26,771 nt of DNA, taken from the IMG/VR virus record IMGVR_UViG_3300037963_000739, positions 1 through 26,771 of that record; one strand, given 5' to 3'. The stretch comes from a virus. A program made the position numbers and the translations under genes. The notes under the pieces were generated by a model. The model searched no databases. It was not told the origin of the DNA and worked only from the letters and a program-made list of their open reading frames with translations. The stretch's first letter is position 1. Every line of letters begins with the position of its first letter. This document shows, piece by piece, positions 1-20,741 of this stretch.

Positions 1-635
1 TTGAGTCCTCTCATCGCTCCTGGACCAGCATTAGCCCATGTCAAAATATCTTTAGCGTCTCGTAATAGATAAGTATGACGTAGGTCTGTTATAACTTCGT
101 ATGCCATGAATGGACCCATGTATGGGTAATCGCGCAAGATCTCCCAAGATTTTTCTAACGATTCGGTAGCAAGTATTTGGTCTACAAGTTTTTCTCTATC
201 GCTCCACATATGGGATATACACTCTGCTACACCTGTTACCTTATCCATACGGTTCGGTGTTTTAACGATATATGCACCTGTTACCCATTTATCTTGTTTC
301 GTTATTTCTTCGATAGCTTTCTTTCTATCCCACTCGATATGTAAGTTATGGCGCACTAAAGTTCTTCCTGTCTCGATAAAATTAAACCAACGGAAAATTA
401 CAGTAGCCATTAAAACTTCAGGATCATCACGCCACACATTACGTATATGGTGTTTAAACCAACGAGTCGTTCTATCGTCTTCTCTAAACACCTGACAAAA
501 CTTAAACTTTTGTAAGATAGGGTCATCCGTCCATGGCTGTGGTCTCCGTTCTACTTCTTTAGCTATACGAATAGTTTCCCGTTCGTGTATCCAATAAAAG
601 TATAGGTCGAGCCTATCTCGTAATTCTTGAATCAC
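1..635 (-). CDS. Partial protein of the 5-hmdU DNA kinase helical-domain / glutamyl-putrescinyl-thymine pyrophosphorylase-like family
   Basis: The reading frame is open from a GTG at 635-633 to the left edge (about 211 codons, C-terminus missing). The GTG overlaps the stop of the methyltransferase gene in a GTGA. Visible motifs are WTDDPILQKFKFCQVFRED near residues 34-52, directly followed by DRTTRW, and, near the cut end, PYMGPFMAYEVITDL and AGPGAMRGL. I recognise this combination from the alpha-helical, HhH-glycosylase-like domain predicted by comparative genomics to act in phage thymine hypermodification. No P-loop kinase precedes it, so this would be a free-standing helical domain. Family assignment is from memory of motifs; the role in DNA base modification is inferred from the family, not shown here. 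Confidence 0.6.
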   Translation of the reverse strand, partial: MIQELRDRLDLYFYWIHERETIRIAKEVERRPQPWTDDPILQKFKFCQVFREDDRTTRWFKHHIRNVWRDDPEVLMATVIFRWFNFIETGRTLVRHNLHIEWDRKKAIEEITKQDKWVTGAYIVKTPNRMDKVTGVAECISHMWSDREKLVDQILATESLEKSWEILRDYPYMGPFMAYEVITDLRHTYLLRDAKDILTWANAGPGAMRGL

Positions 636-1480
636 TTCTTAACAAGCCTCCACGCGCAGTTGTTAGCTATCTCAGGATAGAACACAGCCGCAGCCATTCT
701 TAAAAACTGTTTACCGAAACGTTCTTGTAATAGCAACATTTGTTCTACGCTCCACCCTCCCTGAGTATAGTTGTCTCCAGACATAGCTTTTCTTAATCTA
801 GGCATTTGTATAAACGTACCTGTTACTGCTTCTATACGGAAGTTTCTTTCTAGTTCTTCTTTTAGTTCTTGAAAGCCCCACTCGTAGACATGATCCTCGG
901 GCAACTTATCGTTAGAGCCGTCATGGTTAGGCGTTGATATATAAGCGATAGCATCAGGTCGCATAACCCTTGCCGCCTCATCAAGCCAAGCAGGAACGAA
1001 CTCTCTGCCCATGTGTTCAATAACTTCTGTCGACCAAAAGAAATCTATACTTTCATCTGGTAGGTCTAGTATCGGATTAGTTGTTAAATCTTGTATGCGT
1101 ATTTCGCCGTTGAAGTTCTTAAACCAAGTAGATTCTTTTAGTTCTCCTCCGCCGTTTGACCAAAATGGATTTTCTAGTTCGCAAGCTGGATCGATATCGT
1201 AGCCATAATAAGAACGAATAACGTCAGACTTTTTGATAACATAAGCCTTATATAACACTCTTAATGACCAACACTCACCGCAACCTATTTCTAAAGTATC
1301 TAGTGGTCTACCTAATAATTTAGATTCTTCTATGGCTAAACTAGCTATCTTATCGAATCGACTCATATGAGCTAATTCATCAGGTCGCCAGTTTCCTAGA
1401 ACACCCGCAGACGCTAAATCCATACGGGTATTTTTACTATCGTTTTCGTTAACTTTTAATTTTCTTCTTATAGATGACAT
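632..1480 (-). CDS. Class I SAM-dependent methyltransferase
   Basis: This 282-aa protein has a Rossmann-type methyltransferase core: motif I LEIGCGEC (about residues 63-70) for S-adenosylmethionine binding, the acidic post-I strand GYDID (93-97), motif IV DFFWSTEVIEHM (about 146-157), and VMRPDAIAYISTPN after it. I start it at the ATG at 1480-1478, because GGGAGG lies at ideal spacing in front of it; an ATG 15 nt further upstream has no such site. The start overlaps the end of the preceding gene by 13 nt and the stop overlaps the next gene (GTGA), so the three genes are translated together. The fold resembles ubiE/Methyltransf_11-type small-molecule enzymes more than sequence-specific DNA methylases. 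The substrate is unknown; being next to a thymine-modification-like gene makes a role in nucleotide or base modification possible but unproven. Confidence 0.8.
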   Translation of the reverse strand: MSSIRRKLKVNENDSKNTRMDLASAGVLGNWRPDELAHMSRFDKIASLAIEESKLLGRPLDTLEIGCGECWSLRVLYKAYVIKKSDVIRSYYGYDIDPACELENPFWSNGGGELKESTWFKNFNGEIRIQDLTTNPILDLPDESIDFFWSTEVIEHMGREFVPAWLDEAARVMRPDAIAYISTPNHDGSNDKLPEDHVYEWGFQELKEELERNFRIEAVTGTFIQMPRLRKAMSGDNYTQGGWSVEQMLLLQERFGKQFLRMAAAVFYPEIANNCAWRLVKK

Positions 1481-1968
1481 GGTTCCTCCCACCATTCAGG
1501 TTTATTTCTACCCTTTTCCCACTTAGCGTAGTGCTTTTCGTGGATACAGTAATCTCTGTATGCTTTAACAGGGTTTTCATTTTTATATTGATCAGGCATA
1601 GCCTGTGCTATTGGTGTCATACTTTCTGTAGTCGGTATGTTGTAAGGTATATAATCTAACGCCTCAGCCAACTTCATAACACTCGCATGAGTTTTACCAT
1701 ATCTGTATTTGTATTCTTCTCCTAAAGCTAGGAAGTGTTCGTACAGCCATACATAATTATGATGAGACTCTCTCGCCCATATTGTGCACGGATGATTCCA
1801 GTAAGCTCTTTTATATAAGCCAACCTCATCCGCATATTCATCCCCATCCAACTCTCGGTGCGCAGTACATAACATCTGTGCAGTTTCGAGAGGCATTTTT
1901 ACTAGAAGCTTATCAGGCTGTGCTTGTGCAGCAACTCCTGGGTCTTCGTCAAAATAAAATATATTCAT
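1468..1968 (-). CDS. Conserved phage protein of unknown function (DEDPxxAAQ family)
   Basis: A 166-aa soluble protein opening with MNIFYFDEDPGVAAQ, then DKLLVKMPLETAQML, NHPCTIWARES, NYVWLYEHF and a closing stretch with PVKAYRDYCIHEK and KWEKGR. I recognise this motif series as a widespread conserved phage protein without an assigned function. The many invariant Asp, His, Trp and Arg residues look like those of an enzyme or nucleic-acid-binding fold, but I cannot name one. A strong AAAGGAG lies just before the ATG. It is the first gene after a short gap holding a promoter-like sequence, so it probably heads a three-gene sub-operon with the methyltransferase and the thymine-modification-like protein. 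Confidence 0.8.
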   Translation of the reverse strand: MNIFYFDEDPGVAAQAQPDKLLVKMPLETAQMLCTAHRELDGDEYADEVGLYKRAYWNHPCTIWARESHHNYVWLYEHFLALGEEYKYRYGKTHASVMKLAEALDYIPYNIPTTESMTPIAQAMPDQYKNENPVKAYRDYCIHEKHYAKWEKGRNKPEWWEEPCHL

Positions 1969-2033: not shown

Positions 2034-3530
2034 TTATATCTGAAAGCAGCGCGTCGTTGCAGGCTCAATAAGGTACAAGTTTTCTTTTGCCCTTGTAAGC
2101 CCAACATAAAAAACTCTATTCTCATCATCTGGGTTTTGTTGATACGTTTTATAAACTCTGGTCGTTATATCGGTAAGTAAAACTACATTAGTTGCTTCAC
2201 CACCTTTAGCGGCATGTATGGTCGACAACCTAATTCTAGGTTCTTTAGTAATTTTTTCTCCCCTACGGAGCATGGCTCGGATATAACTAATGTCTTTTGG
2301 ACTTAAACCTGTAAGTGCATCGTACCAATCTCCGTCAGGTAACTCAGGAAAGCGTTCTCTGAGATCAGCTAAGGTCATCGTTACGTCAATCTCTAAAACA
2401 TCTAGGGAGTTAGCCTTACGAACTTTCACAAATTTTAACAGATTGACGCATTCTGATAGGGGTAAACTCTCTCCTTTTTGTAATCTTTGCCAATTTAGCA
2501 CCGCTCTGACTTTTGATTCAGAAATACTAGGTCTACCCTTCACTTCAAAAAACCAACCTTCGTTTCTACAGTGGTCGTCTATTTGTTCAAGTAAATAATT
2601 AGTACGAGCAAGCACCAACCAGTCACCTTTTTCCATATCAATTAATTCGATAGACGGTTCCCACCTAACTAAACCTGTTTCTTTTCTCGGTAGCCATGAT
2701 TTATGTATCCTGGATCTAACTTGATTTATACATCGACTCGCTAGTTCGTGAACAGCTGACGGTATGCGATACGACTGTTCTAATATCGTAGCGTGTGTTG
2801 CGTTCTTAATTAAATAATCTACGTCGGCTCCCGCCCATTTATAAATTGCTTGATCATCGTCACCAGCAACATAAACACGGTCAGCGTTTTCAATTATCTT
2901 ACGAACCACTGCCCACTGTAAGGGAGATAAGTCTTGAGCTTCATCTACAAAAACTGCTTCTAATTTAGGCACGTCACCTTTTTCTAAAAACAGTTTTAAC
3001 ATATCTGTGTAATCTACTAGCAACCTATCTTCCTTAAATAACTGTAATCCTCTAGCGTAACGCTCTAGCTCAAACCAACCCACTGCATCGTCAACATCGT
3101 GCCATTGATCTTCTAACGCCACCTGTCGCATACGAGCAAGGTTTTCTATAAACGCTAATCGATCATCGTGGCTCATGCCAAACAGATGTCCTGAGTCTGT
3201 ATTTACCCCACCCGTTAGACGTAGATTTAAAATCTCATTTAGTTCTTTTATATCTTTTAGATCCATAACGCTTTCTTTAGAAAGCCCTAGTTGCCTAAAC
3301 GCTAACGAATGGAGTGTGCGAAAGAAAGGTAAATCTTTCTGTGATAAATCAAACTTCTCCATAGCACGTTGCTTTCCTTCGTTTACAGCTTTTTTAGTAA
3401 ACGTAAAGAAACCTATCCGTGTAGGATCTGTTCCTCTTTCTAGTTCATCTTCTATCAACCCTAGTAATGTGCTTGTCTTTCCTGTTCCTGGTGGTCCAAG
3501 AATCACTTGCGTATGGGCTGGAAGTGTCAT
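2034..3530 (-). CDS. UvrD/Rep-like superfamily 1 DNA helicase
   Basis: This 498-aa protein carries the SF1A helicase motifs in order: Walker A GPPGTGKT (residues 12-19), motif Ia FFTFTKKAV (41-49), Walker B VDEAQD (195-200), motif III GDDDQAIYKWAGA (223-235), motif IV QSYR (252-255), motif V STIHAAKGGEA (about 436-446) and motif VI VGLTRAKE (about 477-484). It should be an ATP-driven 3'-5' DNA translocase. At about 500 aa it is shorter than cellular UvrD or Rep (about 670-720 aa), with reduced accessory subdomains, as is common in phages. Its ATG overlaps the stop of the AlkB-like gene (ATGA, 3527-3530), placing it in the replication operon. It could unwind forks or support recombination-dependent replication. 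Confidence 0.93.
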   Translation of the reverse strand: MTLPAHTQVILGPPGTGKTSTLLGLIEDELERGTDPTRIGFFTFTKKAVNEGKQRAMEKFDLSQKDLPFFRTLHSLAFRQLGLSKESVMDLKDIKELNEILNLRLTGGVNTDSGHLFGMSHDDRLAFIENLARMRQVALEDQWHDVDDAVGWFELERYARGLQLFKEDRLLVDYTDMLKLFLEKGDVPKLEAVFVDEAQDLSPLQWAVVRKIIENADRVYVAGDDDQAIYKWAGADVDYLIKNATHATILEQSYRIPSAVHELASRCINQVRSRIHKSWLPRKETGLVRWEPSIELIDMEKGDWLVLARTNYLLEQIDDHCRNEGWFFEVKGRPSISESKVRAVLNWQRLQKGESLPLSECVNLLKFVKVRKANSLDVLEIDVTMTLADLRERFPELPDGDWYDALTGLSPKDISYIRAMLRRGEKITKEPRIRLSTIHAAKGGEATNVVLLTDITTRVYKTYQQNPDDENRVFYVGLTRAKENLYLIEPATTRCFQI

Positions 3531-4108
3531 AACCCTGTCCTGAACGTTAAGTTAATACGTTCTCCTACACCACGTAATGTAGGAACAGAATGAGTAGCAG
3601 ACATCTGAGAAGCTCCGTCAAAAATAATAACGTCACCGTGACTTAACAAATAATTGTTTAGTTTAGTAACTTTAGCATCTTCAATATTTATCTCACTGGT
3701 GTTGCTTTTAGTTTTTATGCGGCGATCGAATTGCTTCCATTGGAAGATCCTAGGTTCACCAAACGAGATAGAAACTACAAGGTCTTTTTGAGTAGGTACA
3801 GTATCAGAGTGATGTGGAATACCTATACGACCATTTTTATACATACCACATAAACAAAACGTAAACTCTACGTCTTGTCCTGTAATGTTTTTAGTATATT
3901 CCTCCGCCCCTTGTTTTATCCATTCCATGTTTTTTGTCCACGGATCAGGTTCATATAACTTGCCTGCATATTCGAAAGACTTCGTTCCGAACGCTCTAGT
4001 TGGTCTACCCTCTACAACCTTACCGTTAAAAACTCTTTGAGAAGGTGCGTCCCATTTTTCTATATATGGAACGTATTCCTTCATGGCGTCTTTGTTATAG
4101 TGGATCAT
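3527..4108 (-). CDS. AlkB-like 2-oxoglutarate/Fe(II) dioxygenase
   Basis: This 193-aa protein has the complete AlkB active-site signature: H100-S-D102 (in PHHSD) and H173 (in ATHSVP) to bind iron, and R-x-N-x-T-x-R (RINLTFR, residues 184-190) to bind 2-oxoglutarate and shape the pocket. AlkB enzymes oxidatively remove alkyl groups from bases such as 1-methyladenine and 3-methylcytosine, preferring single-stranded DNA or RNA. It is coupled by ATGA overlaps to the primase gene upstream and the helicase gene downstream, so it acts in a replication setting. Repair of alkylation damage in phage DNA is the simplest role. Since a base-modification-like gene lies in the same direction downstream, hydroxylation or editing of a modified base is an alternative. 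All key residues are present, so it is probably active. Confidence 0.9.
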   Translation of the reverse strand: MIHYNKDAMKEYVPYIEKWDAPSQRVFNGKVVEGRPTRAFGTKSFEYAGKLYEPDPWTKNMEWIKQGAEEYTKNITGQDVEFTFCLCGMYKNGRIGIPHHSDTVPTQKDLVVSISFGEPRIFQWKQFDRRIKTKSNTSEINIEDAKVTKLNNYLLSHGDVIIFDGASQMSATHSVPTLRGVGERINLTFRTGL

Positions 4109-5645: not shown

Positions 5646-6449
5646 TTAGAATGGAGCATCTTCCTCAGAGTCAGTAGGTATATCCACTACTGAAGCTCCG
5701 TCTCGTTGCTGCTCTTCTTTTACTTCTACATCACCCGCTCTCGCAGCATCCATAAACTCTTTAGCGAGTCGTGCTGTTTCTACGTCGGTTGGACCTTCTT
5801 GGTTTACAGTGAAACCGTTCCACGAACCCTTATCGTTAGATTGAGATAAAGTTCCCAAGTTATATTGATAAGCGAACATCGGTGCGGACACTGACTGACC
5901 TTTGCTAGTTTTTACTCTAGCCATTCTTAACATAGTTAGCCACTTCCTAGAAGCTCCTAACTGTGTCGAGGTAAATGCTACAACTGCTTGTTGTGGAGAA
6001 GGCTCTAAAACTAACACAAAAAACTGTGCAGTTTCTACAATCTCATTACCGTTATCGAGAAAAAGTCTACGTGACTCTGGATCTTTTTTACAAGACTTAA
6101 GTATAGAAGCTCCGTGGTCAGCGTTAACTAATCCACCACCCTTCTCACGTGGAACCCACTCGATATATTTTTTAACATAGGCACACGGCACAACCGTAAT
6201 ACCTTTTTCACCGTCATAAACTTCATTAGTTACTGTGTTGACAAGCATACCTGCTTGTGCATCAGGATTGTAACGTCCATCTTGTTTATTAAGTTGTGGG
6301 GACATTTGTTGAAGTACTCTAATAAATGGGATCGCAAAATCCTCAGTCGTAGTTTCTTCAAGTCCAGTGCCACCTGATAATAGATCATCGTCAAAAGTAG
6401 CGATTGCTGTTTGTTTCGCCTCAGCTAGGCTTGTTTTATCTTCTGCCAT
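5646..6449 (-). CDS. Putative single-stranded DNA-binding protein
   Basis: A 267-aa soluble protein with a compact central domain (FIRVLQQMSPQL near residue 42, then WLTMLRMARVKT near 170) and a disordered C-terminus ending in DIPTDSEEDAPF. An acidic tail finishing in phenylalanine is the hallmark of bacterial SSB (DDDIPF) and phage T7 gp2.5-type proteins, where it recruits partner enzymes. It lies between a coiled-coil protein and the primase, as expected for a replication accessory protein. No OB-fold can be proven by eye, so the call rests on the tail, the size and the neighbourhood. A DNA-annealing or recombination mediator function is possible. Confidence 0.5.
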   Translation of the reverse strand: MAEDKTSLAEAKQTAIATFDDDLLSGGTGLEETTTEDFAIPFIRVLQQMSPQLNKQDGRYNPDAQAGMLVNTVTNEVYDGEKGITVVPCAYVKKYIEWVPREKGGGLVNADHGASILKSCKKDPESRRLFLDNGNEIVETAQFFVLVLEPSPQQAVVAFTSTQLGASRKWLTMLRMARVKTSKGQSVSAPMFAYQYNLGTLSQSNDKGSWNGFTVNQEGPTDVETARLAKEFMDAARAGDVEVKEEQQRDGASVVDIPTDSEEDAPF

Positions 6450-6453
6450 AATA

Positions 6454-7029
6454 TTAATCCTTCTTAATAATAGCTTTGGAACCTATATAGATTCCAAATG
6501 GTTCTGTAGGTATGTCCTTCCCAGATGTTAACTGCTCTTTTACGAAAGCCTTTAACGTACTAGGATGAACGCTCTGACGTACTTCAGGCGCAAGTCCGCG
6601 AGATTTTAGAGCAAGTACTGTTTCTTCAGCTACTCTTTCCTCGTCTCTACCGAACTTAAGCGAAACTTCATTTTTAATTAAGCCCGCATGTCCGTTTTGG
6701 ATCAGCCATTGATACGCTGTGTCTTGATTAGCTTTAGATATATGAGCGTTATAAAACTCAGATATAGTGATCTTTTCACCTGTACTAAGTACTATTTCCG
6801 TCAGCCCTGCAGTTTGCATAGCCTCTGGTAACTCTTGTTCTGAAGTTAATCTAAACTCTTCTTTTTTAGCTTTAACAGCTTCTTCTAAACTCGCTAGTTC
6901 TTGAGCTAGTTGAACCTGTTTATTAGCTAAAGCAGAAACTAATGAAAGTTCACCTTCGTTAATCTCATTAAACGATTCTACATTTTCCTCGCCAATGAGT
7001 TCTTCAAAAGTTGGGTTTTCTTTATTCAT
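6454..7029 (-). CDS. Hypothetical coiled-coil protein of the replication operon
   Basis: A 191-aa protein. Residues about 30-70 form a long acidic/lysine-rich heptad-like helix, probably a coiled coil. The following domain includes EFYNAHISK, AYQWLIQNGHAGLIKNEVSL and VHPSTLKAFVKEQL. I have the impression of a conserved phage family with this layout but know no function. It overlaps the upstream small gene by ATGA (7026-7029) and sits 4 nt from the ssDNA-binding candidate, so it is probably co-made early with the replication proteins. The coiled coil suggests oligomerisation or a scaffold or loader role; this is inference only. Confidence 0.75.
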   Translation of the reverse strand: MNKENPTFEELIGEENVESFNEINEGELSLVSALANKQVQLAQELASLEEAVKAKKEEFRLTSEQELPEAMQTAGLTEIVLSTGEKITISEFYNAHISKANQDTAYQWLIQNGHAGLIKNEVSLKFGRDEERVAEETVLALKSRGLAPEVRQSVHPSTLKAFVKEQLTSGKDIPTEPFGIYIGSKAIIKKD

Positions 7030-7668: not shown

Positions 7669-9111
7669 ATGAAATATAAGTTTAAAACGGAGCCGTACGA
7701 GCATCAGCTTGAGGCGTTGAAAAGATCATGGGATAAGAAAGAATATGCTTATTTCATGGAAATGGGAACAGGTAAATCTAAAGTACTTGTTGATAATATC
7801 TCTGTGCTTTACGACAGAGGAGCCATCAACGCGGCTGTAATAATTGCACCGAAAGGCGTATATAAGAACTGGTCGGAACGTGAGATACCAACCCATATGC
7901 CCGAACATATAATAAGGCGTATAGGCGTATGGAATCCCGCACCAACTAAAAAGGAAAAACTACAGCTTACAAAGTTATTCGAAGTTACAGACGATTTAAA
8001 GATATTAGTTATTAACGTAGAAGCCTTTAGTACTAAGAAGGGCGTGGCGTTTGTAGAAAAGTTTTTACTAACTCATAACGCTATGATGGCAGTTGATGAA
8101 TCTACCACAATAAAGAACCCGAAAGCACAACGGACAAAGAATCTCGTTAAGTTGGCATTACAAAGCAAATACAGGCGTATTTTAACAGGTTTTCCTGTTA
8201 CCCAATCACCACTAGACCTATACAGTCAATCAGAGTTCCTATGCGCTCAGTTGCTCGGCTATTCGTCATTCTATACGTTTCAAAATCATTACGCGAAAGT
8301 AATTAATAGAAGTATGGGACAGAGAACTTTTAGACAAGTGGTCGGTTATCAGAACTTAGACGAACTATCTGATAAGGTATCTACGTTCTCGTACCGTGTT
8401 CTTAAGAAAGAATGTTTAGATTTACCCGATAAGGTGTATCAAAAAAGAGAAGTAGAACTTACGCCTGAACAAAAGAAGATATATAACCAAATAAAAGACT
8501 ATGCCATCGCGGAACTTGAATCAAATGAAATAGTTAGCGTTAGCTCGGTTCTAACTCAGATATTAAGGTTACACCAAGTTACTTGTGGTTTTGTAAAACA
8601 TGACCAAGGTGAAGAAATAGAAATTAAAAACAATCGATTAGAAGAATTATTAAAAGTATTAGAAGAAATACAGGGTAAAACAATTATATGGGCTAATTAC
8701 CAATACGATATAAAACGTATTTTAAACACTCTTAACGATATTGTAGGAACTGATGCGGTAGCTACTTATTATGGAGGTACGCCAGAGGAAGAACGACAGC
8801 CTATTATCGATAGGTTTCAAGATCCCAACTCTAGCTTACAGTATTTAATAAGTAATACTCAAACAGGTGGTTATGGAATCACTTTACACCAAGCTAGTAA
8901 CGTTGTTTATTACAGTAATAATTACGATTTAGAAAAAAGATTACAATCAGAAGACAGAGCGCACCGTATCGGACAGGTTAATAAAGTAACTTATATTGAT
9001 TTGATATCGAAAGATACAGTTGATGAAAAAATTGTGAAAGCTTTGCGGAACAAGCTCAACCTAGCACAAGAGGTGCTAGGTGATGATAAATGGAAAGATT
9101 GGATCGGTTAA
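7669..9111 (+). CDS. SNF2-type superfamily 2 DNA helicase/translocase
   Basis: This 480-aa protein has a complete two-lobe SF2/SNF2 motor: Q-like YEHQ (10-13), Walker A MGTGKS (32-37), Walker B AVDEST (141-146; DEST instead of DEAH/DEGH), motif III LTGFPVTQS (172-180), then in lobe two SNTQTGGYGITLHQA (motif V) and QSEDRAHRIGQ (motif VI, about 426-436). Phage proteins of this type are short SNF2 motors without extra domains. It should move on double-stranded DNA using ATP, e.g. to remodel protein-DNA complexes or help replication or recombination. It is the only plus-strand gene here, has its own upstream region and only a weak ribosome site, and its stop shares TTAA with the convergent gene. 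Separate, perhaps early, expression is likely. Confidence 0.93.
   Translation: MKYKFKTEPYEHQLEALKRSWDKKEYAYFMEMGTGKSKVLVDNISVLYDRGAINAAVIIAPKGVYKNWSEREIPTHMPEHIIRRIGVWNPAPTKKEKLQLTKLFEVTDDLKILVINVEAFSTKKGVAFVEKFLLTHNAMMAVDESTTIKNPKAQRTKNLVKLALQSKYRRILTGFPVTQSPLDLYSQSEFLCAQLLGYSSFYTFQNHYAKVINRSMGQRTFRQVVGYQNLDELSDKVSTFSYRVLKKECLDLPDKVYQKREVELTPEQKKIYNQIKDYAIAELESNEIVSVSSVLTQILRLHQVTCGFVKHDQGEEIEIKNNRLEELLKVLEEIQGKTIIWANYQYDIKRILNTLNDIVGTDAVATYYGGTPEEERQPIIDRFQDPNSSLQYLISNTQTGGYGITLHQASNVVYYSNNYDLEKRLQSEDRAHRIGQVNKVTYIDLISKDTVDEKIVKALRNKLNLAQEVLGDDKWKDWIG
9060..9080. repeat. 8-bp hairpin near the convergent gene junction
   Basis: CCTAGCAC (9060-9067) and GTGCTAGG (9073-9080) are perfect complements around a 5-nt loop, inside the last 17 codons of the SNF2 gene and about 28 nt beyond the end of the convergent gene. 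Because the two genes meet without any spacer, a hairpin here could stop or slow transcription from either side. No T-tract follows in either direction, so it is not a standard intrinsic terminator. Confidence 0.4.
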
Positions 9112-9593
9112 GAAAGATATTCGTCTCTTTTTCTTCTAAATTCTTCGGTATCCATAATACCGCCGCCATCAGCCATAAAGCCCATTTTATTTCTTACTTC
9201 TTCAGGTAACTTACCTAATCCCTTATTATCCTCAGGAACAGGTTTTAACGCTTTTCCTTCTGCTGCTCTTTGAGGCTCACGAGCAGCTGCTTCTAACATA
9301 GCTTTAGCGTCATCTAACAACATTAATGCTTGTTGTACGTCACCACCTGTTCTACCAACTACGGCTTCTGCTAAAGCTCCTGCGTCTTGTTGTAACATCT
9401 CACCACTGTCCGCGGGCATCTGTCTATCCATCTCTGAACCCAAACTTGCTTCATTACCCATAAGTGCCGCCATAGCTTCCATAGCTTCTGGTGGAGGTGC
9501 TCCAGCTCCTTTAGCAGGTGCATTAGGATTACCCATAGGTACGTCTGCTCTTTTTCCCATCATCATTATTTCTTCTGTTGGTGTCATCGCCAT
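9108..9593 (-). CDS. Hypothetical low-complexity protein, end of the late operon
   Basis: A 161-aa acidic protein rich in Met, Ala, Gly and Pro (MAMTPTEEIMMMG..., then several AMEAMAAL- and AGALAEAVVG-like helical stretches) ending in MADGGGIMDTEEFRRKRDEYL. No enzyme motif is visible. Composition and location at the end of the virion-protein block suggest a structural or assembly accessory protein; I cannot say more. AGGAG precedes the ATG. Its stop codon shares TTAA with that of the convergent SNF2 gene. Confidence 0.7.
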   Translation of the reverse strand: MAMTPTEEIMMMGKRADVPMGNPNAPAKGAGAPPPEAMEAMAALMGNEASLGSEMDRQMPADSGEMLQQDAGALAEAVVGRTGGDVQQALMLLDDAKAMLEAAAREPQRAAEGKALKPVPEDNKGLGKLPEEVRNKMGFMADGGGIMDTEEFRRKRDEYLS

Positions 9594-9595
9594 AT

Positions 9596-10567
9596 TTATC
9601 TCCTTGGTCTAAACGACTGTGCGAATAGTTGTGTTAGTTTATCGTTTTGTTGCATCGGTGGCAACCCGCCTAATCCTGAATTAAGTGCTCCTCCTCCCAT
9701 CATTGACATAAAACCTAGATCAGTAGAAGGCTCTTGCCCTGGTCTGCTCCCAAACTCTGCCGCAGACATAGGTCTAAAGTATGTTTGTTGTTGTTGTTGA
9801 GGTTGTGGGTTATATACTGCATTTTGTAATGCTGAATTATACGCGGCTCTTTGTTGTTTTATTAAATCACTGATAGGAGAAGCAACTGGCATTCTTCTAA
9901 AATTTGGATCTACGTCTGGCATTCTTTGTATATCTGTGTACTGCCCTACAGTTGACGTAACTGGTGCTGTACTTGGTAATGACCCAATACCCCCTGTGAT
10001 AGGTAAGTCTGATTCGTTTGCTCTACCTATAGCTCGTTCATCTTCCCCGCTCATATAGTTTGGATTATAAGTGTCCGTACTAGATAAACCTAAAAGATCA
10101 TCCATAGTTATATCTGCAGAAAAACTAGGAAAACTCGCTGTTGAGGCTGGAGCTTCTGTAATCGTTTCTACTGGTGTGATTGGAGCTGGAGCTTCTTCTG
10201 CTGCTTTATCTAAAGCAGCTTTTACAGTTTCTTGTATACTGCTCGGCATAGGTGCTGAAGGCTCTACGAATGTAGGAAAATCTCTATCAGATACGGCTTC
10301 TATAATTTTATATTCATCAGGTAAACTTAATGCTTGCATTACTTCTTCCACAACAGGAGGCAAAGATGCAATACCTGATTCGTATTCTGTAATCTGCTCC
10401 TTCGTATTTTCAGCTACGTCTTTTTCGTATTCATTAGTCGCCGCCGAAAGATCTTGATCTGCAAGATACTTAGCTACTTCAACAGCGATGCCCGCGTTGA
10501 TCTCGTCCATGTTTAAGTCTGGTAATGCAAACCCACCTAAATTTATTCCGCCAAATCCTGGACCCAT
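9596..10567 (-). CDS. Hypothetical proline/glutamine-rich virion-block protein
   Basis: A 323-aa protein that looks mostly disordered. Its N-terminal third is glycine/acidic, the middle has Ala/Pro/Thr-rich linkers (near residues 110-150), and near residue 260 there is a short poly-glutamine run (QPQQQQQT) encoded by CAA repeats. It ends with a Met/Gly-rich segment and a basic SFRPRR tail. No family recognised. Its ATG overlaps the stop of the 1106-aa gene by one base and it sits 2 nt before the next gene, so it belongs to the same transcription unit. A linker or assembly role in the particle is plausible but inferred. Confidence 0.7.
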   Translation of the reverse strand: MGPGFGGINLGGFALPDLNMDEINAGIAVEVAKYLADQDLSAATNEYEKDVAENTKEQITEYESGIASLPPVVEEVMQALSLPDEYKIIEAVSDRDFPTFVEPSAPMPSSIQETVKAALDKAAEEAPAPITPVETITEAPASTASFPSFSADITMDDLLGLSSTDTYNPNYMSGEDERAIGRANESDLPITGGIGSLPSTAPVTSTVGQYTDIQRMPDVDPNFRRMPVASPISDLIKQQRAAYNSALQNAVYNPQPQQQQQTYFRPMSAAEFGSRPGQEPSTDLGFMSMMGGGALNSGLGGLPPMQQNDKLTQLFAQSFRPRR

Positions 10568-17779: not shown

Positions 17780-18901
17780 TTAACTACTTTGTTTTATGGT
17801 GATTGTATTAGCAGAACCTCCGTTTACCTTGACAACGTTTTCCACACCGTTTTGTAAAAGAATTAAAGTATATGAGCTAGAACCGTCTAAATCTAGTCTA
17901 TAACTGTCCCCTACAGCCCTTCTAATACTTATTTGTTGTCCTGTTATTATCGTAGTTATTTGGGTATCTTTATCTTGACCTATATCTGTTCCCGCTATTC
18001 GTATGCCTGTGGCTAATTGATTTAGTTGATCTTCTTCTTCAGAAACAGCTAGTGCGTCTATTATTTTTAGTAAATCTTCTAAAAAGTTTACGTCAAGGTA
18101 ATTTATATCTAGTTCTGTGAAGGTTAGATCAGCTTCATTATCTAAAAAGTCCTCTGCTAAAAAATCAATATCTAGGTCTGCAAAATCTAAATAATCAGCG
18201 GTGCCCTGTACTTGTGTTTGCTCTAAAGAATCTTGTGTTTCTTTTGGAGGATTTACAATCAGCATGTTATCTATCAGTTCAAGGGTTATATCTAAGATAA
18301 CAGGTTTAGTAGGTGCTTGTTCATATACACTTGCAACTGTAGATTCATAAGGTTTATTAAGAATAACCATACCCATAGCAGTCTCTACTGTTATTTCGCC
18401 GCTAGAAGTGCCGTCAAAATTAGGCAATAAAATCACCAATGACCGCCCTAATTCATCAACAGTTATAGTGAAGTCTGTTCCTCTTATTCCAATGGTTGCA
18501 CTATTCGTACGTATTTTAATATTTTTCTTTGGAACTTTATTAAGTTTACCTGTAACAAATCGTGCGGTACCTTTAGCAAAGGTTAAAGCCATTTTAGAGT
18601 TATCTGGATTAGGATCAAAAACAAACTCATCAATTAATACTTTTGAGTTTTCTGTAAGTCTTATTTGAGTTTCATCGATAAATGTAATACCCATACGACC
18701 ATTCGCTGTCTCTACTTTGTCATAACTGAGTATGCCAAAGTCTAGTTCAGCTCCGTAAGGTTGGTCTCTTACTACTTGCGCGTTGCCACGTAACTCACTA
18801 ATACTGCCTATATCAGCAGCCTGTGCTTGTACCTTGGTCGTTTTGAATGACACACACAGAGCTAGAAGTAGAACCAACACTGATAATTTTAAGCCAGTCA
18901 T
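17780..18901 (-). CDS. Secreted FecR-domain protein of the curli-like module
   Basis: A 373-aa protein with a Sec signal peptide (hydrophobic core 6-19, likely cleavage after AQA at about 28) and a FecR domain at about 32-180, with GNAQVVRD, GDxV-like YDKVETANGRMGITFIDET and IKIRTNSATIGIRGTDF. FecR domains are beta-rich modules that act in the periplasm or on the surface of many bacteria. The rest is acidic (DFADLDIDFLAEDFLDN region, 240-280) and ends in a beta-rich tail. The start at 18901 is needed for the signal peptide, so its first 89 nt overlap the end of the curlin-like gene. Function here is unknown; co-occurrence with CsgF, CsgG and a curlin suggests a partner of that secretion system, e.g. 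a surface anchor, stabiliser or second cargo. Confidence 0.85.
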   Translation of the reverse strand: MTGLKLSVLVLLLALCVSFKTTKVQAQAADIGSISELRGNAQVVRDQPYGAELDFGILSYDKVETANGRMGITFIDETQIRLTENSKVLIDEFVFDPNPDNSKMALTFAKGTARFVTGKLNKVPKKNIKIRTNSATIGIRGTDFTITVDELGRSLVILLPNFDGTSSGEITVETAMGMVILNKPYESTVASVYEQAPTKPVILDITLELIDNMLIVNPPKETQDSLEQTQVQGTADYLDFADLDIDFLAEDFLDNEADLTFTELDINYLDVNFLEDLLKIIDALAVSEEEDQLNQLATGIRIAGTDIGQDKDTQITTIITGQQISIRRAVGDSYRLDLDGSSSYTLILLQNGVENVVKVNGGSANTITIKQSS

Positions 18902-19532
18902 TATCTTGTGTACTTTGTTGTTGTATATTAAAAGTTCTATTACTTCCTGTATGATCTAGCCAAAAATAACCTCCAGCATAACCGTCTCCATCGTAAGTAA
19001 CAGTATTATCAGATCCATCAATATCCATGTAATTAGTCGCCGCATCTATATCAATCGCTGCAGTAATACTATTACTCGAACCGTTAATAATCCAATCTAA
19101 ATCTAGTGTGGTAGCTTGTGCAACAGTAGCGTGATTTAAAGTGAATGTATTGCTGTTTCCAGTTACATCGACATTCACATTAGAACTGTCTGCTCCAAAT
19201 GTGTTAGTTTTGTCTGTATTCATGTTAAATGTATTGCTGTTACCGTCGAACTCGAAAAAACCTGTATAAGAGTCTGCCCAAATATCTCCTAAAAATTTAT
19301 TGCTGTCTCCTATCTGGTTTATATCAAGTGTCATAGCTGTTCCATCTAAATCTAACGGGGTCATATTAGAAGCACCAGCCGTGGCATCGGCTCCTCCTAT
19401 AATATTTCCCGAACCTAACTGCTCAAGGTCTATGTTGGTATTAGATGATCCAGAACTCTGGTCAATATATATTTCGTTATCTGCTCCGTATAGAGGTGAC
19501 GACAACATTAGTAATAATAAAAGTTTTTTCAT
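18813..19532 (-). CDS. Secreted curlin-repeat (amyloid-like) protein
   Basis: A 239-aa protein with a signal peptide (MKKLLLLLMLSSPLYG) and about eight imperfect curlin-type repeats of the form hydrophobic-x-hydrophobic-x-x-G-x-x-N-x-hydrophobic: IYIDQSSGSSN, IDLEQLGSGN, LDINQIGDSN, FEFDGNSNTF, VDVTGNSNTF, WIINGSSNSI, MDIDGSDNTV and LDHTGSNRTF. The Gln is kept only in the first three; Gly and Asn persist. Curlin repeats form the beta-helix of CsgA/CsgB amyloid. Two Cys (227, 239) close the chain, perhaps as a disulfide. The ATG at 19532 has GGAGG at good spacing and overlaps the CsgG stop (ATGA); a longer TTG start is unlikely. It is the probable cargo of the CsgG channel. Sequence identity to E. 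coli CsgA is low. Confidence 0.8.
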   Translation of the reverse strand: MKKLLLLLMLSSPLYGADNEIYIDQSSGSSNTNIDLEQLGSGNIIGGADATAGASNMTPLDLDGTAMTLDINQIGDSNKFLGDIWADSYTGFFEFDGNSNTFNMNTDKTNTFGADSSNVNVDVTGNSNTFTLNHATVAQATTLDLDWIINGSSNSITAAIDIDAATNYMDIDGSDNTVTYDGDGYAGGYFWLDHTGSNRTFNIQQQSTQDNDWLKIISVGSTSSSVCVIQNDQGTSTGC

Positions 19533-20317
19533 TCTTTTATCCTCCAATAATTATTTTTTACACCCTCTTTTATTGTCTCTAGTACCGCTGTTTCAATCGC
19601 CATTTGTAAGGCGATGCTGGTCGGCTCATTTTTTACCGCACCTCCTTCAATCTCGATTAACTCTGTACTATCCGAAACAAACCTAAACACGTCGTTATCT
19701 AACGACGCAGACAAAACTGTTTTTGTAACTAAAACTTCTGTTAAAACTCTTCCTGTGCTGACAGATACTGTTCTTAAACTTACTGTGATTATATCTTCTC
19801 TAAACTGTCTTGAGATTCCTATTCCTAAATTTCTTGCCCCCATACCACCACTAGATATATTCGCTTGATAAGATAAAACGCCTCCTGTCATTATCATGTC
19901 GCCAAATTTAAGGGGTAATAACTTCTGATCCTCGTCAAAAGTATCTCTTGTTGAACGGATTAACTGTCTTTCTTTAGTTACTGAATCTAATGAAACTCGT
20001 TCTACTACTTCAAAAAAGCCTGAGTGTTTAAGGGCTCGGATTAAATATGCATGAGGAGCCTGTGTAATAGCTGTGCTAAAGGTAGCGTATTTAGAGTTAG
20101 ACCTACGTTGCCCTGTTTCATCTTTAAAATCATTGGCATATATAGAAACCACAGGTTTTCTGATAGGCTCAGGAACCTCTTTTATGTCTACGTATAACCC
20201 TACAACTTGAGCCTGCTTCAAACGCTCAACTGGAGGTAAGTTGTTAGCTAAAGGATCGATCATTAGCGTACAGCTAGAAAGTAAAACCACCAACGGGAAC
20301 AATAACTTCTGTAACAT
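19529..20317 (-). CDS. csgG: CsgG-like outer-membrane curli secretion channel lipoprotein
   Basis: A 262-aa lipoprotein: signal peptide with lipobox LLSSC (Cys16, the same position as in E. coli CsgG) and a CsgG domain with KPVVSIYANDFKDETGQ, FSTAITQAPHAYLIRALKHSG then FFEVVER, SSGGMGARNLGIG, ITVSLRTVSVSTG, VTKTVLSASLDNDVFRF and NEPTSIALQMAIETAV, in the order of the bacterial protein. CsgG forms a nonameric pore that exports curli subunits. The Phe of the constriction loop (FSTA) is kept, while the residues before it differ and the loop is one residue longer. I start at ATG 20317, with GAGG upstream; the gene then overlaps CsgF by 44 nt. Length is close to the 277-aa E. coli protein, so it is probably a full channel. 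Confidence 0.95.
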   Translation of the reverse strand: MLQKLLFPLVVLLSSCTLMIDPLANNLPPVERLKQAQVVGLYVDIKEVPEPIRKPVVSIYANDFKDETGQRRSNSKYATFSTAITQAPHAYLIRALKHSGFFEVVERVSLDSVTKERQLIRSTRDTFDEDQKLLPLKFGDMIMTGGVLSYQANISSGGMGARNLGIGISRQFREDIITVSLRTVSVSTGRVLTEVLVTKTVLSASLDNDVFRFVSDSTELIEIEGGAVKNEPTSIALQMAIETAVLETIKEGVKNNYWRIKE

Positions 20318-20741
20318 TGCCGTCCTCATCGGTAATTGTAACTTTAACTTCTTCATCTGTTATTTCATATTCTATAGTGTTACCATCTAGCTCCATAGAA
20401 CCGCTTTTATTGGTATCTTCTCCAAATAATGAAGCCTCTACTTGGCGAGCAATGTTAGCGTAGATACGACTGGTCAGATTTCTCATGAACCTAGCTTCAA
20501 CTGTGTTATTTTCTTCCCTTTCTATTTCATCGCGCAACGCTTTGATTTCTTCTGCGATTGCTTCTTTACGATTAGTTTCTTGATTTTCAATAGTTAGATA
20601 ATGACTAGAAGTACCAACTCCGCTAAACGAAGGACTTTTAAATTCATGAACCATTTCGTCAGCGTGTATTTGTTGAATAGCCACAACTAATAAAATAATC
20701 ATCATTCCTATGATCGCAAATATTGTGTCGTAAAAGTTCAT
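20274..20741 (-). CDS. csgF: CsgF-like curli assembly factor
   Basis: A 155-aa secreted protein with a signal peptide to about residue 27 (HA/DEM). The mature start MVHEFKSPSFSG matches the CsgF head MTFQFRNPNFGG of enterobacteria, the part that plugs into the CsgG pore. The rest shows the CsgF order: a helical linker, ARFMRNLTSRIYANIARQV then LFG, and a beta-rich tail with NTIEYEITDEEVKVTITD and EVIVPVGGF. A longer charged helix (56-80) replaces the Asn/Gln-rich linker of E. coli CsgF. It lies just before csgG and shares its first base with the stop of the upstream membrane protein gene. CsgF couples secretion to surface nucleation of curlin, so the phage carries both pore and pore-cap. Confidence 0.88.
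   Translation of the reverse strand: MNFYDTIFAIIGMMIILLVVAIQQIHADEMVHEFKSPSFSGVGTSSHYLTIENQETNRKEAIAEEIKALRDEIEREENNTVEARFMRNLTSRIYANIARQVEASLFGEDTNKSGSMELDGNTIEYEITDEEVKVTITDEDGNVTEVIVPVGGFTF

Follow-up and report, generated by a model that had tools for sequence, protein, structure and literature searches.

The left end of the window, by which we mean the whole stretch of DNA that was analyzed (26,771 bases, the entire virus record, with nothing further left in it), is best explained as the upstream part of a predicted thymidine-hypermodification cassette of a pelagiphage-like marine phage, in which a methyltransferase (MT), an HMUDK_hel protein (hel) and a dUMP hydroxymethylase follow one another. 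It is highly likely that a 5-hydroxymethyl-dU (5-hmdU) cassette lies at this end, and likely that the MT acts on a hydroxymethylpyrimidine; judging from sequence comparisons, we also lean towards an O-methyl product, 5-methoxymethyl-dU, that would be made on DNA together with hel. Three open reading frames occupy the left edge, all on the minus strand and where the original prediction had placed them, and the features are as follows:

3..635, minus strand: hel, an HMUDK_hel (PF18723) protein, of which the first 211 of about 294 amino acids are present before it runs off the contig end
632..635, minus strand: GTGA shared by the end of the MT gene and the beginning of hel (translational coupling)
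632..1495, minus strand: class I SAM-dependent methyltransferase (MT; PF13489/PF08241), 287 amino acids
1468..1968, minus strand: DEDPxxAAQ protein (phrog_624 'DNA binding protein'; weak PF03013 Pyr_excise), 166 amino acids

The MT and hel reading frames share 4 nt in the window, and an overlap of either 1 or 4 nt is seen in 93 of 105 non-redundant pairs, so the translational coupling that had been noticed at the GTGA is real. The DEDPxxAAQ protein had been proposed as a further member of this sub-operon with a promoter-like signal of its own, and neither proposal held up. The signal (a 9/12 match at 2026–1997) is without statistical support, with 10 such matches in the region versus 18.9 ± 4.9 in shuffles, and the protein is directly upstream of the MT in only 34 of 77 relatives and therefore lies outside the conserved unit, as an incidental and optional neighbor. 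An AlkB-like 2OG-Fe(II) oxygenase is encoded in the same operon at 3527–4108, and occurs in 41 of the 77 relatives at variable positions. Both the DEDP/Pyr_excise protein and the oxygenase are optional and mobile among the relatives, and are ruled out as core parts of the cassette.

The left-edge protein is a member of the HMUDK_hel family, as was predicted from its motifs: it matches PF18723 at 2e-39 and 136.1 bits (curated cut-off 25) and phrog_2396 at 3e-52, a full-length relative scores 159.8 bits against PF18723, and the motifs FREDDRTTRW, GPFMAYEVITDL and AGPGAMRGL are all present, with core residues that are invariant or nearly so among 76 aligned homologues. A complete homologue of 294 amino acids is encoded at 10001–10885 in the relative L002. 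A PDB sequence search with hel gave no match. The AlphaFold model (pLDDT 94) resembles the HhH DNA glycosylase MjOgg in Foldseek comparisons with a probability of 1.00 and an E-value of 0.048, which is weak although the best obtained for hel (TM 0.38–0.40 by query); PaMx11 5-PmdU glycinyltransferase and MagIII are matched with probabilities of 0.87 and 0.66, each with a weak E-value. A sequence-profile comparison of hel with the amino-acid:DNA transferase family was negative, and homology between these two is unsupported. When aligned by the position of the HhH motif, Phe176 of hel appears to lie at the place of the OGG-type catalytic lysine with Asp196 kept, which would suit base flipping without strand cleavage, and we regard hel as a helical partner protein of hmdU systems, with a predicted likeness to HhH glycosylases.

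The upstream gene encodes a class I SAM-dependent methyltransferase, with a Rossmann-like fold, a GxG motif, and profile matches to PF13489 (6e-10) and PF08241; the SAM-site residues G71-C72-G73 and D100 are invariant. Foldseek searches with its AlphaFold model (pLDDT 86) return many small-molecule methyltransferases including AtmM and RebM, and the predicted fold is not diagnostic of substrate, resembling methyltransferases of many kinds. Neither the (D/N/S)PP(Y/F/W) motif IV of DNA amino-methyltransferases nor the catalytic PCQ/PCT motif of 5mC methyltransferases occurs in any of 76 MT sequences, and a PDB sequence search with the MT gave no match. Beyond the SAM site, His202 and Glu205 are conserved in both branches of the MT family (see below), and could plausibly deprotonate a hydroxyl. 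Natural fusions of the MT to hel, or other fusions, were sought as proof of interaction and none were found. The only relatives in cultured phages are 26–28% identical to the window MT and belong to the distant one of these branches, and among cellular homologues there is one close match, on a short contig that is binned as a Maricaulis MAG and is probably phage, the remainder being weak. The MT in MW202621 is labelled 'capping protein', which is likely a mis-annotation.

Because the window is the whole contig, the left flank was read in the relatives L002–L005, whose hel proteins are 93–95% identical to that of the window. The order there is hel, a 73-aa ORF, a thymidylate synthase (TS) homologue (11116–12165 in L002), a 120-aa ORF and DNA polymerase; the MT, hel and a uracil-type hydroxymethylase are found together in each of the 105 non-redundant relatives whose hydroxymethylase could be read. 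The best PDB match of the TS homologue is a CMP 5-hydroxymethylase (75.6 bits, vs 49.6 for the best TS), the catalytic cysteine (Cys146) is kept, and the Trp80 segment of TS is not conserved; the E. coli ThyA sequence behind these numbers serves for position numbering only. Residue 177, at which Asn or Asp is the established dUMP/dCMP determinant (PMC8670742, PMC6400193, PMC5175136), is Asn in every one of the 142 hel loci where it could be read, irrespective of the partner gene, and Asp in all 64 readable MT loci without hel. Cys146 and Asn177 of a dUMP hydroxymethylase are thus both found in the relatives, the gene being absent from the window itself, and by these residues the TS homologue beside hel is a predicted uracil-type hydroxymethylase. 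M6 gp58 has the same residue pattern as the TS homologues of hel loci, and M6 DNA contains 5-NedU (PMC6449724). Among 50,697 cultured phage records, only 1,799 and 762 contain homologues of these two types of hydroxymethylase.

The HMUDK_hel match and the TS-type hydroxymethylase just to the left in relatives bear out the hypermodified-thymidine setting that was originally predicted, but of the two enzymes expected to complete the pathway there, a hydroxymethylase and a P-loop 5-hmdU kinase, only the former is present. A profile search for a PF18748-like kinase found none in 23 MT-type records of 54–84 kb (the 24th record searched, L217, is of the glycosyltransferase type) and none in 3 TAGT-type records, and the same profile recovered the kinase from all 9 kinase-type records held out as controls. 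A kinase hidden elsewhere in MT-type genomes is ruled out by this search and its positive controls, an absence that is strong rather than absolute as IMG/VR records may be fragments. A TAGT glycosyltransferase was found in none of the 24 records and is ruled out as a partner of the MT phages, and exactly one TS homologue is present in each of the 24. Among loci fetched with hel or MT, some of them overlapping stretches of one contig, those with a window-type MT contain hel in 107/107 cases and a kinase in 0/107; within the 20 kb neighborhoods fetched, a PF18724-like amino-acid:DNA transferase occurs only in kinase-type loci. The MT sits in the slot directly upstream of hel that is held by the kinase in M6 and PaMx11, and because of this the chemistry that we predict is methylation, rather than phosphorylation and amino-acid transfer.

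The partners of hel vary more widely. A non-redundant tally in a wider scan, using profiles built in this analysis and with TAGT membership Pfam-checked on five loci, gave 42 loci with MT, 14 with kinase, 20 with glycosyltransferase types (TAGT 10, GT4 with FkbM 8, FkbM with TAGT 1, GT4 alone 1) and 2 with none, and MT and kinase never occur in one hel locus. Since hel is found elsewhere with glycosyltransferases, it is a partner common to several systems and not of kinases only. The kinase-less loci L027, L028, L030, L031, L033, L034 and L035 contain hel either with TAGT glycosyltransferases or with GT4 and an FkbM-type methyltransferase, and are probable glycosylated hmdU systems. In L120 (Acinetobacter phage nACB2) the hel and TS genes at 6248–6946 and 9129–10301 are flanked by Macro-domain and phosphomevalonate-kinase-like proteins, perhaps representing yet another hmdU chemistry. 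A quick hel tree, which has several long branches and is unsure in its details, allows the MT loci to form one group (support 68), with kinase and glycosyltransferase loci interleaved and at least 4 forced changes for each. This topology fits a hel–hydroxymethylase core with an exchanged transferase, and the MT group may reflect a single acquisition, so that the many MT loci should not be counted as independent events.

The MT family (METHYLTRANSFERASE) has a second, separate context, that of hel-less loci with cytosine-type hydroxymethylases. This distant branch, about 26% identical to the window MT, has no hel and no kinase in 74 non-redundant loci; a TS homologue is near the MT in 66 of them, against the low background among cultured phages given above, and of the 8 loci without one most stop a short way past the MT. 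Among the neighbors are a PRA-PH pyrophosphohydrolase and a dCMP deaminase, with a dNMP kinase in some. By the residue-177 assignments, one MT family accompanies both predicted 5-hydroxymethyl-uracil and predicted 5-hydroxymethyl-cytosine synthesis, and the two hydroxymethylase contexts have in common the 5-CH2OH group, which we propose as the MT target. The existence of the hel-less branch indicates that hel is dispensable for the MT family as such, and with only about 26% identity it is uncertain that the cytosine branch shares the reaction. In L358, L360 and L363 the MT occurs with a far more divergent TS-like gene (59–61 bits), and the pyrophosphohydrolase is upstream rather than downstream.

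Stenotrophomonas phage AXL3 contains the distant-branch genes, encoding the MT (gp31), pyrophosphohydrolase (gp30), a kinase-like protein (gp29), the Asp177 hydroxymethylase (gp28) and dCMP deaminase (gp27). Its DNA is cut by only 2 of 37 restriction enzymes, TasI and Tru1I, both with A/T-only sites, from which its authors concluded that G/C bases are altered, and it encodes a separate ThyX-type synthase (PMC7504290). The cytosine-type call from Asp177 predates our comparison with these published data, which fit a genome-wide cytosine modification; the resistance would be equally expected from unmethylated 5hmC, from its methyl ether, or from another cytosine modification. The Asp177 hydroxymethylase of PW916 is annotated as a deoxyuridylate enzyme, likely a mis-annotation, and the record annotation of the cytosine-type AXL3 gp28 is likely also wrong (the labels of this PW916/AXL3 pair being deoxyuridylate enzyme or thymidylate synthase). 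Both AXL3 and PW916 are cultured, and the cytosine half of the proposal is thus directly testable.

In the mechanism that we propose, the TS homologue whose gene lies immediately beyond the left window edge would make 5-hydroxymethyl-dUMP, and 5-hydroxymethyl-dU would be incorporated instead of some or all thymidine. We infer that hel, as a DNA-glycosylase-like helical module, would bind DNA and present 5-hmdU by base flipping, and that the co-translated MT would use SAM to methylate the exposed hydroxyl of the 5-CH2OH group, yielding the O-methyl product 5-methoxymethyl-dU on DNA and not on the nucleotide. The MT would stand in for the 5-hmdU kinase of M6 and PaMx11 and for the glycosyltransferases of other hel phages, and its sister branch would treat 5-hydroxymethylcytosine likewise.

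The MT could alternatively act before replication, on 5-hydroxymethyl-dUMP or -dUTP (5hm-dCMP or dCTP in the sister branch), with the methylated nucleotide being incorporated and hel having some other role on hmdU DNA. The hel-less sister branch does have nucleotide-pool enzymes around it (PRA-PH pyrophosphohydrolase, dNMP kinase, dCMP deaminase), and a carbamoyltransferase of similar neighborhood acts on 5hmdCTP as well as DNA (PMC8670742); however, the tight MT–hel coupling mirrors the kinase–hel pair, of which the kinase acts on DNA (PMC7653180), and this argues for DNA-level action in the uracil branch, leaving pre-replicative methylation unlikely. More doubtful is that the MT belongs to hmdU and hmC systems but modifies elsewhere, such as a ring nitrogen or a further intermediate, or uses a donor such as carboxy-SAM. 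Sequence cannot tell the donor or the acceptor, and a phage DNA carboxymethyltransferase, CmoX, is known (PMC12783734), but 5-CH2OH is the moiety shared by both hydroxymethylase contexts, and the MT has no DNA amino- or C5-methyltransferase motif.

Methylation of the hydroxymethyl group can also be set against two readings in which the MT is peripheral. An M6-like kinase-based hypermodification, with an undetectably divergent 5-hmdU kinase elsewhere and the MT as a late tailoring enzyme, would account for the hel and hydroxymethylase genes held in common with M6 and PaMx11, but is improbable given the kinase counts (0/23 records vs 9/9 controls) and the restriction of amino-acid:DNA transferase homologues to kinase-type loci. 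The least probable reading is ordinary thymidylate supply next to an unrelated methyltransferase with no DNA modification at all: although TS homologues are often labelled as plain thymidylate synthases, the sequence here is hydroxymethylase-like, hel is constantly present, the MT link recurs in two separate contexts, and AXL3 DNA is restriction-resistant.

In the kinase-type pathway, 5-hmdU is phosphorylated and an amino acid is then transferred. The phages M6 (5-NedU) and PaMx11 that use it share with the window type hel and a TS-type hydroxymethylase in the same order near the DNA polymerase, and a catalytic gene directly upstream of hel (overlapping it by 4 nt in 8 of the 14 kinase loci that were checked); they have the kinase and an amino-acid:DNA transferase, whereas the window type is without both and has the SAM methyltransferase in the kinase's place. 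M6 gp54 matches the kinase family PF18748 at 8e-18, and its annotation as 'terminase small subunit' is likely wrong. The 5-hydroxymethylcytosine carbamoyltransferase of the MetaGPA study is similar in transferring a group to a 5-hydroxymethylpyrimidine, and has the Asp177 hydroxymethylase, PRA-PH pyrophosphohydrolase and dCMP deaminase neighbors of the sister MT branch, but it transfers carbamoyl rather than methyl and acts on cytosine only, and hel and methyltransferases are unmentioned in that report (PMC8670742). Systems with a TET-associated glycosyltransferase (PF20691) or GT4/FkbM also combine hel, a uracil-type hydroxymethylase and a group transferase without a kinase, but presumably transfer a sugar and not a methyl group.

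A pair of TS and aG/PT-PPlase1 (hel) genes together with curli T8SS genes was described in HTVC023P-type pelagiphages in 2022, and a role in thymidine hypermodification proposed (PMC9599517); the window or its relatives have both such a TS and hel pair and curli genes. The window contains FecR, CsgG and CsgF genes (curli, type VIII secretion) at 17780–20741, as in those phages (PMC9599517), and a SNF2-type helicase gene at 7669–9111 on the plus strand, opposite to the adjoining genes, which matches that of HTVC023P-type pelagiphages, with 71–73% DNA identity to pelagiphage helicases. The window phage and the HTVC023P-type pelagiphages are very probably one lineage. The hel and synthase pair in pelagiphages and its thymidine-hypermodification role are therefore already published; the word methyltransferase is absent from that paper, and the missing kinase and the product are undiscussed in the passages covered (PMC9599517). 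What appears to be new is the MT, the absence of a kinase and the cytosine branch, and neither 5-methoxymethyl-uracil nor 5-methoxymethyl-cytosine is named in the full texts of 5.39 million open-access papers under the spellings searched.

The DNA of this ocean phage family thus probably carries a methyl-capped base that is, as far as we have found, unreported in nature. The chances seem to us even for the broader proposal of a new class of DNA bases, comprising 5-methoxymethyl-dU where hel is present and 5-methoxymethyl-dC where it is absent, and made by one MT family, in which hel would be a general hmdU-presenting subunit with an exchangeable catalytic partner (kinase, glycosyltransferase or methyltransferase). 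If true, the 'kinase helical domain' would be recast as a module common to several DNA-modifying systems, and the enzyme would be a useful means of shielding 5hmC or 5hmU during sequencing chemistry. A methyl-ether base would then be present both in widespread ocean phages and in cultured Stenotrophomonas and Pseudoxanthomonas phages, where masking the hydroxyl with a small, neutral group could block the glycosyltransferases, kinases and defense enzymes that read hydroxymethyl bases.
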